Made by a program: the position numbers and the translations under genes
Part shown: in pieces, positions 11,071 to 17,847 of the stretch
Layout: each line of letters starts with the position of its first letter
Position numbering within the stretch: the stretch's first letter is position 1
Assembly: GCA_020831885.1 (NCBI GenBank)
Contig: JAFIFU010000001.1
Coordinates: forward strand, 62,001 to 126,000
Length of the DNA: 64,000 bases
From: Ectothiorhodospiraceae bacterium
GTDB taxonomy: Bacteria > Pseudomonadota > Gammaproteobacteria > Nitrococcales > Aquisalimonadaceae
Reading direction: 5' to 3'
Notes under the pieces: model-generated
Databases searched by the model: none
Told to the model about the DNA's origin: nothing
The model's input: the letters and a program-made list of their open reading frames with translations, nothing else

Positions 11071-11934
11071 ATGAAGTGTCCCCGGGTCTATGTTCCGGAG
11101 CCCATTGCCGGGCCGGGCGAACTTGCCCTGAGTGGCGATGCGGCAAACCACCTGCGCGTGCTCCGTCTGCGTGCCGGTGATCCCCTGGTCCTGTTCGACG
11201 GGTGTGGTGGCGAGTTCACGGCCGAACTGCTTGCCGTGGACCGGAGGGCGATGCGTGTGCGCGTCCTGGAGCACCGGGCCGCGGAGCGTGAATCGCCCTT
11301 GCGGTTGACCCTGGTCCAGGCGATCAGCAAAGGGGATCGCATGGACTGGACCATCCAGAAGGCGGTGGAGCTCGGGGTCAGTCGTATCCAGCCCGTGTTC
11401 GCGGAACGCACCGTGGTGCGGCTGCAGGGTGAACGGCTGCGAAGGAAACTGCAGCACTGGCTTGGCGTGATCTCCAGCGCCTGTGAACAGTGCGGCCGCA
11501 ATCATCTGCCGGATCTGCTGGATCCCGCGCCGCTCACCGCCATCGGATCCCTGCTGGGTCAGCAGCGCCTGGCCCTGCTGCTGGATCCCGCAGACGGCTA
11601 CACGCTGAACCACTTCAGTGTCCCCCCGGACGCCAGTCTGGCGCTGCTTGTGGGCCCGGAGGGCGGGTTCAGCCAGGCGGAGCTGCGCTGGGCGCGGGAT
11701 CAGGGTTGTCACCCACTGCGCCTGGGGCCACGGGTGCTGCGAACGGAAACGGCGGGCATTGCCGCTATGGCCGGGATTCAGTTGCTCTGGGGGGATCTGC
11801 GTCAACCATTGTCGGTGCCCGTTCGGGCCGTACCTGTGGTGCGGGCGGGGGGTTACCCGCCCCGCTGGTGGTTTCCGGACAGTCCGAGATTGTGCCAGAT
11901 GGCTTCGCTGGGCCCGGCCTGGTTGAGCGTATAG
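11071..11934 (+). CDS. rsmE: 16S rRNA (uracil1498-N3)-methyltransferase RsmE
   Basis: 287 residues. RsmE methylates U1498 of 16S rRNA using S-adenosylmethionine. Family motifs are clear: LVQAISKGDRMDWTIQKAVE, the SPOUT-knot segment LLVGPEGGFSQAE and LGPRVLRTETA. Usual RsmE proteins end soon after the IQLLWGD strand (about 245 residues). Here the frame runs on about 40 residues and overlaps the convergent metF coding region by 82 bases, so the tail is probably extra sequence before the first stop. It starts 2 bases after chpC, with no strong Shine-Dalgarno, and may depend on coupling to the Chp operon. Confidence 0.93.
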   Translation: MKCPRVYVPEPIAGPGELALSGDAANHLRVLRLRAGDPLVLFDGCGGEFTAELLAVDRRAMRVRVLEHRAAERESPLRLTLVQAISKGDRMDWTIQKAVELGVSRIQPVFAERTVVRLQGERLRRKLQHWLGVISSACEQCGRNHLPDLLDPAPLTAIGSLLGQQRLALLLDPADGYTLNHFSVPPDASLALLVGPEGGFSQAELRWARDQGCHPLRLGPRVLRTETAGIAAMAGIQLLWGDLRQPLSVPVRAVPVVRAGGYPPRWWFPDSPRLCQMASLGPAWLSV

Positions 11935-12725
11935 AAATGCAGGCCGGGTGCCCCGCCCTCCAGCAGATCGAAACAGAGCTCGGTCACCACGTCGATGCCG
12001 AAGGCCTGGAGGGATTCCCGATCGTCGCCGAAGGCGGCCAGACGCTTGCGCAGCCAGCGGGGTATCTCCGCGCCGCAGGCATCGGAGAAACGTGCCAGTT
12101 GTTTGAAATTGGTGATGGGCATGATGCCGGGTACGATGGGCAGGTGGATTCCTTCCAGCTCGCAGCGCTCAACGAAGCGGAAATAGGCGTCCGGATTGAA
12201 GAAGTACTGCGTGATAGCGCAATCGGCCCCGGCCTCCACCTTGCGTTTGAAGTTCATCAGATCCGCATCCGCGTCCTCCGCCTGTGGGTGCACCTCCGGG
12301 TAGCAGGCCACTTCTATCCGGAAGTGCTCGCCGTGTTCCCGGCGGATGAACTCCACAAGCTCATTGGCATAGCGGAAATGGCCGGGTCCGCTCATGCCTG
12401 ACGGCATGTCGCCGCGCAGCGCGACCACGTGGCGGATGCCATGATCCCGGTACTGTTGAAGGATTTCCGCAATGCTTTCCGGAGTGGAGCCGATGCAGGA
12501 CAGGTGAGGCGCCGCCGGTATGCCGGACTGTTGCTGAATTTCGATCACTGTCTCGAAGGTGCGGTCCCGGGTGGAGCCACCGGCGCCAAAGGTCACCGAG
12601 AAGAAGCGGGGCTCAAGCAGGGCCAGGCGTTCCCGGGTGGCGCGTAGCCGTTGGACGCCCTCCGGGGTTTTCGGCGGGAAGAACTCGAAGCTGTATTCCG
12701 GCTGGTACTTGGCTTGGGATTCCAT
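11853..12725 (-). CDS. metF: 5,10-methylenetetrahydrofolate reductase MetF
   Basis: 290 residues from ATG 12725; a GTG four codons upstream (12737) is an alternative. MetF is the flavoenzyme that makes 5-methyl-THF for methionine synthesis. Seen: YSFEFFPPKT at the N terminus, VTFGAGGSTRD, VALRGDMP, EVACYPEVHP and QYFFNPDAY. It lies downstream of ahcY in the same direction, so both probably share the SAH riboswitch leader. A perfect 11-bp hairpin sits between them. Its stop codon lies inside a GC-rich hairpin shared with the 3' end of rsmE. Confidence 0.96.
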   Translation of the reverse strand: MESQAKYQPEYSFEFFPPKTPEGVQRLRATRERLALLEPRFFSVTFGAGGSTRDRTFETVIEIQQQSGIPAAPHLSCIGSTPESIAEILQQYRDHGIRHVVALRGDMPSGMSGPGHFRYANELVEFIRREHGEHFRIEVACYPEVHPQAEDADADLMNFKRKVEAGADCAITQYFFNPDAYFRFVERCELEGIHLPIVPGIMPITNFKQLARFSDACGAEIPRWLRKRLAAFGDDRESLQAFGIDVVTELCFDLLEGGAPGLHFYTLNQAGPSEAIWHNLGLSGNHQRGG

Positions 12726-12742
12726 GGGTTTTCTCACGACGG

Positions 12743-12768
12743 CACCCCCGGCCGTGGGGCCGGGGGTG
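12743..12768 (-). terminator. perfect hairpin between ahcY and metF
   Basis: CACCCCCGGCC and GGCCGGGGGTG form an 11-bp stem with a 4-base loop. It lies just after ahcY and a few bases before the metF start. There is no T run, so it may not be a full terminator; partial termination or mRNA protection of ahcY is more likely. Its GGGGGTG arm is also the only purine-rich box before the possible GTG start of metF, so folding could limit metF translation. Confidence 0.5.
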
Positions 12769-12793
12769 GTTTGAACGGAGGGCCGGCCCGGTT

Positions 12794-14209
12794 TCAGTAA
12801 CGGTACGTGTCGGGCTTGAACGGGCCTTCCGCCGGCACGCCGATATACTCCGCCTGCTCGGGACGCAGTTCGGTGAGTCGGGCGCCGAGTTTCTGCAGGT
12901 GCAGCCGGGCGACTTTTTCGTCCAGATGCTTGGGCAGCACGAAGACGCCGTTGTCGTAGCGATCGCGATGGTTGAACAACTCGATCTGGGCCAGTACTTG
13001 GTTGGTGAACGAGTTGGACATCACGAAGCTCGGATGCCCTGTGGCGCAGCCCAGGTTTACCAGACGGCCTTCCGCCAGCAGGATCAGCTTGTTGCCGCTG
13101 GGGAGGGTGATGTGATCGACCTGGGGCTTGATGTTATCCCACGGGTACTGCTTGAGGCTGGCCACGTCAATCTCGTTGTCGAAATGGCCGATGTTGCAGA
13201 CGATGGCGTTATGCTTCATCCGCAGCAGGTGGTCATGGGTGATGACATGGAAGTTGCCCGTGGCGGTGACGAAAATGTCCGCCTTATCGGCGGCGTCTTC
13301 CATGGTGACTACACGATAGCCTTCCATGGCCGCCTGGAGGGCGCAGATGGGGTCGATCTCGGTAATCCACACGGTCGCACCCTGTCCGCGCAGGCTCTGG
13401 GCGCAGCCCTTGCCCACATCACCGTATCCGCAGACAACGGCGATCTTGCCGGCGATCATCACATCGGTCGCCCGCTTGATGCCGTCCAGCAGGGACTCGC
13501 GGCAGCCGTACAGATTGTCGAACTTGGATTTGGTCACCGAGTCGTTGACGTTGATGGCGGGGAAGGGCAGTCGGCCTTCCTTCTCCATACGCAGCAGGCG
13601 GTTGACGCCGGTGGTGGTCTCCTCCGTCACGCCTCCGATGGCGGCCAGCGCCTTGCCGTACCAGCCGTGCCGGCTTTCCAGGCGCTTGCGGATGCTGGCG
13701 AACAGCGCCTCCTCCTCCTCGCTGCCCGGCTTGTCCAGCACCGAGGGGTCCTGCTCCGCCTGGGCGCCGAGCATGAGCAGCAGCGTGGCGTCGCCGCCGT
13801 CATCCAGGATCATGTTGGCGGTCTGGCCGTCACCGAAGTCGAAAATGCGGTGGCAGTACTCCCAGTAGTCGTCCAGGGTTTCGCCCTTGTAGGCGAACAC
13901 CGGTACGCCGGTGGCCGCAATGGCCGCCGCCGCGTGGTCCTGGGTGGAGTAGATGTTGCAGGAAGCCCAGCGCACTTCGGCACCCAGTTCCACCAGGGCC
14001 TCGATCAGCACCGCGGTCTGGATGGTCATGTGCAGGGATCCGGCGATCCGTGCGCCCTTCAGCGGCTGCTGGTCCCGGTACTCCTCGCGCACGGCCATCA
14101 GACCGGGCATTTCGGTCTCGGCGATGGCGATTTCCTTGCGGCCCCAGTCAGCGAGGCCGATGTCGCGCACGATGTAGTCGTTGGTCTTGGATTCCACGAC
14201 AGCATTCAT
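12794..14209 (-). CDS. ahcY: S-adenosylhomocysteine hydrolase AhcY
   Basis: 471 residues. It splits S-adenosylhomocysteine into adenosine and homocysteine, relieving product inhibition of methyltransferases. Seen: [33 protein letters not shown], the NAD-binding loop [28 protein letters not shown] and the C-terminal PDTYRY. The insertion with DDGGDATLL is typical of the bacterial long form. ATG follows GGAG by 8 bases. The gene lies between metK and metF on the same strand and is preceded directly by an SAH riboswitch. Confidence 0.98.
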
Positions 14210-14227
14210 GATGCAGACTCCGTTTCG

Positions 14228-14303
14228 CTGAGCGCCGTTGGTTAAGGAAAGGGTCCAGTGTCCGAGCCTGGCAGGGACGTGCCCTGTTGCAACGCTCCTC
14301 GCA
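14228..14303 (-). ncRNA. SAH riboswitch (ahcY leader)
   Basis: Read on the minus strand the leader has CGAGGAGCGTTGCAAC, a CAGGG/CCCTG hairpin, CCAGGCTCGG, and after a variable loop AACGGCGCTCA. These are the conserved blocks of the S-adenosylhomocysteine riboswitch in the right order. GAGCG pairs with CGCTC (P1), and CGAG can pair with CTCG as the pseudoknot. SAH riboswitches are known upstream of ahcY and metF in proteobacteria and switch expression on when SAH accumulates. The ahcY GGAG box lies 7-10 bases beyond the 3' P1 strand, so control by access to the ribosome site is possible. Confidence 0.93.
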
Positions 14304-14342
14304 CACCGGCCGGAAAATTCGGTTCACCGTTCCAGGTGAGCG

Positions 14343-14374
14343 GGGCGGCAGCGGTTCCGGCTCCCCTGCCGCCC
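14343..14374 (-). terminator. hairpin after metK
   Basis: GGGCGGCAG and CTGCCGCCC form a 9-bp perfect stem around a 14-base loop, 7 bases past the metK stop. No T run follows, so it is either a weak terminator or a 3'-end stabiliser separating metK from the riboswitch-controlled ahcY-metF unit. Confidence 0.45.
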
Positions 14375-14380
14375 GGCAGA

Positions 14381-15538
14381 TTACAGGCCCGCCGCCTCCC
14401 GCAGTGCCGCGGCCTTGTCGGTTTGCTCCCAGGTGTACTGTGGCTCTTCGCGGCCGAAATGGCCGTATGTGGCCGTCCCCTGGTAGATGGGGCGCACCAG
14501 ATCCAGCATCTTCAGAATTCCGTACGGGCGCAGGTCGAAGAATTCCCGGACCAGGTCACTCAGGCGGGATTCCTCGATCCTGGACGTGCCGAAGGTCTCC
14601 ACCATGATGGAGGTGGGCTCCGCCACGCCGATGGCATAGGAGACCTGGACCTCGCACCGCTCCGCCAGGCCGGCGGCAACGATATTCTTGGCCACATAGC
14701 GGCAGGCGTAGGCGGCGGAACGGTCCACCTTGGACGGGTCCTTGCCGGAGAACGCACCGCCGCCATGGCGGGCCATGCCCCCGTAGGTATCGACGATGAT
14801 CTTGCGCCCGGTAAGCCCGCAGTCGCCCATGGGGCCGCCCACCACGAATCGGCCCGTCGGGTTGATCAGATAACGGGTGTCGGCGGTTATCCAGTCTTTG
14901 GGCAGCACCGGCCTGATGATCTGTTCGATCACCGCCTCCTTCAGCTCGCTCTGGGTGATTTCCGGCGCGTGCTGGGTGGACAGGACCACCGCGTCCACGG
15001 CGGCCGGGCGGCCGTTGTCATAGCGCAGCGTCACCTGGCTCTTGGCGTCGGGCCGCAGCCAGGGCAGTTCGCCGGAGCGACGGACTTCGGCCTGGCGCCG
15101 TACCAGGCGGTGGGCGTAGGTGATCGCCGCGGGCATCAGCACATCGGTCTCATCGCAGGCGTAGCCGAACATGATGCCCTGGTCGCCGGCGCCCTGCGCC
15201 TCGGGCGTCTCCCGGTCCACTCCCTGGTTGATATCCATGGACTGCTTGCCCAGTGCATTGATGAATGCGCAGGTCTCCGCGTCGAACCCCATGTCCGAGT
15301 CGGTATAGCCGATGCGCCGTACCACCGCCCGGGTGATGTCCTCGTAGTCGACGTTCGCTGATGTCTTCAGCTCACCGGCGAGTATGATCAGGCCGGTCTT
15401 GGTCAGCGTCTCACAGGCCACGCGGGCCCGTGGATCCTGTTCAATAATGGCGTCCAGGATGGCATCCGAGATCTGGTCGGCCATCTTGTCCGGATGGCCT
15501 TCGGAGACGGATTCCGACGTAAACAGGAAACTCTTCAC
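14381..15538 (-). CDS. metK: S-adenosylmethionine synthetase MetK
   Basis: 385 residues from GTG 15538. MetK makes S-adenosylmethionine from ATP and methionine. Seen: [27 protein letters not shown]-like GELKTSA, the second signature [18 protein letters not shown] and KIIVDTYGG. The GTG is preferred because GAGGAGG ends six bases before it. An ATG two codons upstream (15544) directly abuts that box, too close for normal initiation. The gene heads the SAM-cycle cluster metK-ahcY-metF and is divergent from tkt across a 308-base gap. Confidence 0.96.
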
Positions 15539-15846
15539 CCTCATCCTCCTCACAGTCGCCGGCCGGGCCGGGGCGTTGTTCCAGCGGGGGTCCGGGGTGC
15601 TCCCGGGTGCGCGAACCTGCAAGTGTACCGTGCAACAAACCGCTTGACGACAGGCAGTGCGCGTTTCCGCAGGAAAGCGAGGGTTCCGAAGGCGCGGCTT
15701 GCTCCGGAAGGCGAATTCCTTGAAAATTGCGGCCCTTACACTATGGGCGAAATGCGCCGGGCAACGGTCCCGCCGCCGGGTGACGACCTGCACCCTGCCC
15801 ACCGCCCGCCACGCCTGAAGCCGTCGCAACCGGGAGATCCGCATCA
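15539..15846. other. divergent intergenic region metK / tkt
   Basis: The 308-base gap must carry promoters for both metK and tkt. Toward tkt, TTGAAA at 15720-15725 and TATGGG at 15742-15747 are 16 bases apart and form a passable sigma-70 promoter. Toward metK no good match was found. I saw no SAM riboswitch pattern, no tRNA and no credible small gene. In-frame codons upstream of metK do not look like coding sequence of this family. Confidence 0.5.
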
Positions 15847-17847
15847 ATGCCGTCGCGCCGCGAACTCGCCAACGCTATTCGAGCCCTGAGCATGGACGCT
15901 GTCCAGCGGGCGAAATCCGGTCACCCGGGTGCCCCCATGGGCATGGCCGATATCGCCGAGGTGCTGTGGAACGATTTTCTCCGGCACAATCCCGCCAACC
16001 CGCATTGGGTGAACCGGGACCGTTTCGTGCTCTCCAACGGACACGGTTCGATGCTGATCTACAGCCTGCTGCACCTCAGCGGCTACGATCTCCCCCTGGA
16101 CGAGTTGCGCAACTTCCGCCAGTTGCACTCCAAAACCCCCGGACATCCCGAATTCGGCTATACCCCCGGTGTCGAAACCACCACCGGGCCGTTGGGGCAG
16201 GGGCTGGCAAACGCGGTGGGCATGGCGCTGGCGGAAAAGGTGCTGGCGGCCCAGTTCAACCGGCCGGGCCACCCGCTGGTGGACCACTACACGTATTGTT
16301 TCGCCGGCGACGGGTGCCTGATGGAGGGCGTTTCCCACGAGGCCTGCTCGCTGGCGGGCACCCTGGGGCTGGGCAAGCTGGTTGTGTTCTATGACGACAA
16401 CGGCATCTCCATCGACGGCAAGGTGGAGGGCTGGTTCACGGATGACACCCCGCGCCGGTTCCGTGCTTACGGCTGGCACGTGATCGAGGACGTGGATGGC
16501 CATGATGCCGAAGCGGTGAAACGTGCCACGGAAGAGGCCCGACGCGTCACGGATCGCCCCACCCTGATCTGCTGCAAGACGGTGATCGGTTTCGGTGCGC
16601 CCAATGCCTGCGGCACCCACGGCGTCCATGGAGCGCCTCTGGGTGACGACGAGATCCAGGCCACCCGCGAATTCCTCAACTGGGAGCATGCGCCGTTCGA
16701 GATACCGCCGGCCATCTATGACGGCTACGATGCGAGGGAGGCCGGCGCCAGGGCGGAAGCCTCCTGGAACGAGACCCTGGCCGCCTATCGCAAGGCGCAT
16801 CCGGAACTGGCTGCCGAATTCGAGCGGCGGATGGCCGGTGCCCTGCCGAAGCACCTCGCCGGGCATGCGGACGACCTTCTTGCGCGGGTCGCGGATCAGG
16901 CCGAGAAGGTGGCAACCCGGAAGGCCTCCCAGAATGCCCTGGAGGGCTTCGGTCCCTATCTGCCAGAGCTGATCGGCGGTTCCGCCGATCTGACCGGGTC
17001 CAATAACACCAAGTGGTCCGGCTGCGCGGCGGTCACCGCCGAGGACGGTGACGGCAACTACGTGTATTACGGTGTGCGCGAGTTCGCCATGACGGCCATC
17101 CAGAACGGCCTGGCGCTGCACGGCGGCTTTCTGCCCTACGGTGGCACCTTCCTGGTGTTCTCCGACTATGCTCGCAATGCGGTCCGCATGGCGGCGCTCA
17201 TGAAACTGCGCAGTATCATGGTCTACACCCATGATTCCATCGGCCTGGGCGAGGACGGTCCCACCCATCAACCGGTGGAGCATCTGGCCAGCCTGCGCTT
17301 GATTCCGGGGCTGCATGTCTGGCGCCCCTGCGACTCGGTGGAAACCGTGGCCGCCTGGCGCAGCGCCATTGAGCGCGGGGACGGACCCACCTGCCTGGTG
17401 CTGACCCGCCAGGGGCTCCCCTGTCAGGAACGCAGCCCGGCGCAGCTCGACGCGATACGGCGCGGTGGCTATGTGCTGCGTGATTGCGACGGCGAGCCGG
17501 AACTGCTGCTGCTGGCCACCGGTTCCGAGGTGGCGCTTGCGGCCGGGGCCTGGGAGCGGCTCATGGAACAGGGGGTGCGCGTCCGCCTGGTGTCCCTGCC
17601 CTGTGTCGAGGTGTTCCTGGCCCAGGATCAGGCTTACCGGGACAGTGTGATCCCACCCGGCCTCCGGCGCCGGCTTGCGGTGGAAGCGGGGCACGTGGAT
17701 TACTGGTACAGGTTCGTCGGGCTGGACGGGGCCGTGATCGGCATGGACCGCTTCGGCGAATCGGCGCCGGCCGATGCCCTGTTCGCATACTTCGGCTTTA
17801 CCGTGGACAACGTGGTCAACACTGCCCTCGGGCTGCTGGGGGAGTAG
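15847..17847 (+). CDS. tkt: transketolase
   Basis: 666 residues. Transketolase moves two-carbon units between sugar phosphates with thiamine diphosphate. Seen: [20 protein letters not shown], the ThDP motif [13 protein letters not shown] with the following [10 protein letters not shown], the pyrimidine-domain [10 protein letters not shown], and the phosphate-binding [15 protein letters not shown]. Length is normal. A GGGAGA box precedes the ATG. It is the first gene of a tkt-epd-pgk set, 4 bases from the next gene, so the three probably form one operon for the pentose phosphate and lower glycolytic/Calvin reactions. Confidence 0.98.

Follow-up and report, generated by a model that had tools for sequence, protein, structure and literature searches.

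A SAH riboswitch between metK and ahcY in an Ectothiorhodospiraceae bacterium, most likely acting on ahcY translation

Riboswitches control either transcription or translation. In the SAH riboswitch family, a P1 stem, a P2 stem and a pseudoknot fold around SAH, which is bound with strong discrimination against SAM, and in the original description of the family this binding is said to raise the expression of the downstream gene. To judge from the part of one comparative study considered here, SAH riboswitches are found ahead of ahcY, together with metF, and are not placed at metK; ahcY and metF form the core regulon and metK is not controlled (PMC4239095). Both this kind of riboswitch and its ahcY/metF setting are already known; what is new is the individual member described below, found in a contig of an Ectothiorhodospiraceae bacterium (JAFIFU010000001.1, positions 62,001 to 126,000, forward strand), the whole stretch of 64,000 nucleotides being referred to as the window. 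Taking identification and translational mode of action together, we are confident, short of certainty, that a SAH riboswitch occupies the stretch between metK and ahcY, where its most likely target is the translation of ahcY.

The aptamer, its fold and the adjoining genes

When the window was scanned with cmscan, the SAH riboswitch model of Rfam (RF01057) was matched at 14306-14223 on the minus strand, full-length (model positions 1-78 of 78); the match scores 56.4 bits, the gathering score being 37, with an E value of 1e-7, and a genome-wide scan found no second one. A first-pass annotation, made from the sequence alone, had placed a SAH riboswitch before ahcY at 14228-14303 and suggested the Rfam SAH model as a check; the above-threshold match bears it out and extends the span by 5 nt on the 3' side and 3 nt on the 5' side. 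The three conserved blocks quoted there are all present in the sequence, and the P1 stem and possible pseudoknot it described are both conserved in 56 homologues, P1 with one G.G mismatch in the window. On sequence grounds the element at 14306-14223 can be taken as confirmed, an ordinary SAH riboswitch of a known family in the expected place, and by analogy with the family SAH is most likely its ligand. The SAM/SAH riboswitch model (RF01727) gave no match at gathering in the window, where the sole other Rfam family matched is 6S RNA (RF00013; 55074-55262, minus strand; 78.9 bits, gathering score 46.4).

The RF01057 alignment pairs the P1 5' strand (14305-14299) with the P1 3' strand (14265-14259), the sole G.G mismatch falling at 14302/14262; the P2 hairpin (14272-14286, with 14286-14282 pairing with 14276-14272) appears in both the alignment and the fold. 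The pseudoknot is formed by GAGCGU at 14297-14292 and GCGCUC at 14235-14230. These 56 aptamers comprise the 26 from a search of relatives and the best 30 of 114 from a search of the class, aligned with MAFFT; P1 and four P2 pairs were taken from the Rfam structure line and the pseudoknot was read from the sequences. Across P1, P2 and the pseudoknot, standard pairs fill 96.2% of cells, whereas shuffles reach 80.5% and slid partners 33-41%; changes on both sides are seen in 10 of the 17 pairs, and the covariation score was reached by none of 500 shuffles. The pseudoknot cells are 99.1% paired, its terminal pair being broken in 3 of the 56 sequences, and since three of its six pairs never vary its support is mostly conservation: just one pair, 11/94, has a change on both sides, being altered in a compensatory way in one sequence and G-U in seven. 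Under a fold model without pseudoknots the leader folds no better than shuffles (z +1.44).

The gene order on this one strand is metK, riboswitch, ahcY, metF, all three genes passing the NCBIfam equivalog cut-offs by which they were assigned. Upstream lies metK, for methionine adenosyltransferase (14381-15544, start taken from the translation; TIGR01034, 630.9 bits, cut-off 309.4); downstream follow ahcY, for adenosylhomocysteinase (12794-14209; TIGR00936, 622.7 bits, cut-off 497.6), and metF, for methylenetetrahydrofolate reductase (11853-12725, starting at ATG 12725 or GTG 12737; TIGR00676, 355.4 bits, cut-off 293.7). Beyond them the metF (minus) and rsmE (plus) reading frames are convergent, with 3' ends overlapping by 82 bp at 11853-11934. 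The ahcY Shine-Dalgarno, read from the sequence as GGAG at 14218-14221, had been described as lying next to the 3' strand of P1, which is actually some 38 nt away; its neighbour is the 3' strand of the pseudoknot, 8 nt before it, and the start codon follows 8 nt after it. From the 3' end of the aptamer model to the start codon there are 13 nt.

Transcript layout and level of control

In the mechanism that we propose, rising SAH would cause P1, P2 and the pseudoknot to fold round the ligand, and the folded pseudoknot would sequester the strand just upstream of the Shine-Dalgarno, leaving the ribosome site and start codon open; AhcY would then be made and SAH removed, and metF would come next on this message. 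When SAH is absent, the freed strand could pair with sequence further down, which in some predicted folds means the ahcY start codons, and initiation would be reduced. SAH-dependent activation of ahcY is suggested here by analogy with the family, and translation is the likely level of control because the 13 nt between aptamer and start are too few to hold an intrinsic terminator. In an unconstrained fold of the window leader the ahcY start codons are indeed paired with the pseudoknot 3' strand, but a longer stretch gives a different best fold. When the pseudoknot strands were barred from other pairing, the region from Shine-Dalgarno to AUG became more open in 8 of 26 leaders and was equally or less open in 18. 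Simple folding thus fails to explain how the ribosome site would be freed, and the notion that it frees the Shine-Dalgarno was set aside.

One question then is whether the element works at all and, if so, at which level. A degenerate, non-functional aptamer, to which the G.G mismatch in P1 might point, as might the higher scores (61.9 and 66 bits) of the two other members of the genus that were searched, is scarcely credible when the near-invariant core positions are all kept, the pseudoknot is complete and the score stands 19 bits over gathering. Action of the same riboswitch on transcription, by intrinsic or Rho-dependent termination before ahcY, deserves somewhat more thought, riboswitches in general using both modes and 4 of 26 genomes having 41-66 nt and a predicted hairpin between aptamer and ATG; it is nevertheless unlikely for the window, which shares with 21 other genomes a spacing of just 13-17 nt, and a search for terminator-like sites found none in the leader. 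Translational control of ahcY thus being preferred, the transcript on which it would operate may be considered separately. The predicted hairpin between the metK stop and the aptamer (14340-14377, minus strand) had been taken to set metK off from the control unit, a view that does not hold up: the hairpin has no U-tract, the terminator scan did not call it, and the gap between metK and aptamer, which measures 74 nt in the window, ranges from 12 to 213 nt over the 26 riboswitch-bearing genomes from the search of relatives, 13 of which have at most 40 nt. An intrinsic terminator after metK was rejected on the missing U-tract and the absent terminator call, and the 81-nt stretch that holds the hairpin is only modestly more stable than shuffles (z -1.57).

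A separate promoter between this hairpin and the aptamer, which would leave metK outside the ahcY transcript and is compatible with translational control, is less likely than not. The 74-nt gap with its predicted hairpin would accommodate it, and in Burkholderia cenocepacia the adenosylhomocysteinase gene has a long 5' UTR, delimited by start-site mapping, in which a SAH riboswitch was found (PMC4603805). Against it stand the short gaps just given, matched by 24 of the 59 genomes of the class sample with metK upstream (again 40 nt or less), and the riboswitch-less members of the window's order, in which 17 of 20 loci (one gene sometimes contributing two of them) have metK and ahcY separated by 2-33 nt. 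A search of 11700-15900 gave no promoter-like site, which says little since shuffles give just 0.6 on average. Most simply, metK and ahcY form an operon and the switch sits between its cistrons, ahcY probably being co-transcribed with both metK and metF, although a promoter may lie within the gap or within metK.

Whether or not the message is shared, metK is upstream of the switch, in agreement with the lack of metK control in the portion of the comparative study cited above (PMC4239095), and even on a shared message it would be left free. With a switch placed between two cistrons, SAM synthesis and SAH removal would be uncoupled at the level of translation. The likely regulation of ahcY in the window is fixed by the element: SAH hydrolase, and probably MetF too, is most likely made in answer to SAH.

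The first codons of ahcY

A further question is whether the switch extends into the coding region. The first five codons of ahcY (ATGAATGCTGTCGTG; 14195-14209, minus strand) begin with a start that is associated with the riboswitch across genomes and are a candidate competitor for the pseudoknot 3' strand. On this reading the first codons (ATGAAYGCYGT) would be part of the switch: when SAH is absent they would replace the aptamer 5' strand, pair with the pseudoknot 3' strand and hide the start codon, so that the N-terminal MNAV would be kept by the needs of the RNA and not of the enzyme, and be lost with the riboswitch. We regard this as tentative and, on present evidence, unlikely; if true, part of the enzyme N-terminus would be conserved for the riboswitch's sake. 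Among the papers listed by a literature search, with the founding paper of the family outside it, titles and abstract openings pointed to none on a coding-region role for the SAH riboswitch.

All 26 riboswitch-bearing genomes of the relatives search open ahcY with ATGAAYGC, and in the class sample a start codon followed by AAYGC occurs in 46 of 70 riboswitch-bearing genomes, being missing in the other 24, as against 1 of 34 riboswitch-less ones (Fisher's p 1.4e-10, relatedness ignored). Here the 70 positives are the best-scoring 30 of 114 riboswitch-bearing class genomes plus 40 hand-picked from the remainder; the negatives are the 34 with a callable start among 36 riboswitch-less genomes hand-picked from the continuous ahcY matches listed, G045 being left out. 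Covariance model R1 found the aptamer in 40 of 40 hand-picked positives and 0 of 36 negatives, and start calls allowed ATG, GTG and TTG, a start giving [NS]A at residues 2-3 being preferred in both groups when several starts were possible. Likewise, in a second set of 80 named loci, 78 of them callable, the motif is found in 32 of 57 with a riboswitch and 1 of 21 without, the latter being mostly from other phyla or alphaproteobacteria, and among riboswitch-less loci of the window's order it is found in 2 of 20 (one genome). Among riboswitch-bearing genes with alanine at codon 3, GCT encodes it in 54 of 78; GCT accounts for 11 of 36 alanines at codons 5-9 in these genes, and for 0 of 7 codon-3 alanines in riboswitch-less ones.

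Descent complicates this picture. In riboswitch-less members of the order (G014, G019, G020, G034, G037 and others; L052-L081) the AhcY encoded beside metK has no counterpart of window AhcY residues ~144-180. Because it aligns in two pieces, skipping those query residues, gene replacement is a confounder of the start-motif comparison; it looks as if gene type and riboswitch had been exchanged together. In a tree test of riboswitch against start motif (quick tree, LG+G4, 89 of 90 rows) there are 4 independent pairs on well-supported branches, with a best p of 0.25; over 200 pairings a mean of 2.7 went the same way and 0.0 the opposite way (rounded; a few had one), so that the test did not confirm the codon reading.

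The folding data are mixed. In folding ensembles, pairing of codons 2-4 with the pseudoknot 3' strand reaches 0.224, as against 0.105 when riboswitch-less starts are placed on the same leaders (n=86, higher in 46), and no other segment differs as clearly; the stretch from Shine-Dalgarno to AUG is not more paired with native starts (0.585 against 0.574). The pseudoknot 3' strand pairs with ahcY codons 1-8 better than with riboswitch-less starts in 71 of 91 leaders (mean -7.83 against -5.42 kcal/mol). Stretches deeper in ahcY pair as well or better, the first stretch giving the strongest pairing in just 7 of 26 and 7 of 65 leaders; so do synonymous recodings, of which a median share of 0.78 is at least as stable, a share of 0.05 or below being seen in 7 of 91. 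Specific pairing of codons 1-8 with the pseudoknot 3' strand was therefore not confirmed by these two comparisons. It is because recodings and deeper stretches pair as well or better, independent pairs are few and 24 of 70 genes lack the motif that we hold the codon reading to be so doubtful.

Occurrence among relatives and comparison with known riboswitches

Riboswitch calls throughout were made by covariance-model scans, a plain motif scan missing members with a GGGGCG core, and matches with E >0.01 were dropped. These were one of 16.5 bits in L135, a locus thereafter counted as lacking the riboswitch, and the weaker of two matches in each of L153, L127 and L128. On this basis 26 of the 40 genomes in the relatives search, the window's own included, carry the riboswitch, in every case flanked by metK upstream and ahcY downstream, both on its own strand. 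The spacing from aptamer to ATG is 13-17 nt in 22 of them and 41-66 nt in 4 (L013, L017, L018 and L023), where an extra hairpin is predicted before the Shine-Dalgarno. Two SAH riboswitch matches each occur in 8 of the 114 riboswitch-bearing class genomes (G109, G112, G145, G157, G193, G261, G272 and G303), those of G112 lying ~1.3 kb apart on one contig. Matches of 35.7-58 bits to a SAH model built here, not that of Rfam, were also seen just upstream of ahcY in L097, L100, L103, L106 and L148, whose records are titled Mariprofundaceae, Holophagaceae (two), Armatimonadetes and Hyphomonadaceae, four of the five being MAGs; these fall outside the usual range of the SAH riboswitch, which is the beta and gamma groups.

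What follows ahcY is more variable. On the same strand metF comes next in 16 of the 26 riboswitch-bearing relatives, the window included; of the remaining 10, 8 have a same-strand rsmE after ahcY and 2 have neither gene in the fetched stretch. Of the joint control of ahcY and metF that the first-pass annotation thought likely, the ahcY part stands on its placement and the Rfam match, and control of metF by the same riboswitch is plausible, given these 16 genomes and the core regulon set out in part of the comparative study (PMC4239095). The relative of rsmE found in metF's place (44-52% identity) occurs in order members L039, L041, L044, L045, L047, L049, L050 and L051. Because rsmE follows ahcY on the same strand there, the SAH switch might also control a 16S rRNA methyltransferase, and the same source, in the part considered, lists rsmE (COG1385) as a member of the SAH-riboswitch regulon in Moraxellaceae (PMC4239095).

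Compared with described systems, the element in the window agrees with the SAH riboswitch (RF01057) in its full-length model match, its core sequences, its P1, P2 and pseudoknot, and its position before ahcY with metF next, and differs in nothing essential, the one G.G mismatch in P1 apart. Its location between metK and ahcY is likewise common: of the 70 riboswitch-bearing class genomes examined, 59 have a same-strand metK no more than 600 nt upstream of ahcY. The SAM/SAH riboswitch (RF01727) resembles it in sensing the same metabolite pair and in its association with metK; that model, however, is unmatched in the window, and in the part of the source considered it is reported only in Rhodobacterales, immediately upstream of metK and not between metK and ahcY (PMC2864571). 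The SAM-Chlorobi motif (RF01724), described in the same part of that source in leaders of operons with metK and ahcY (PMC2864571), shares this genetic setting but has no match at gathering in the window.
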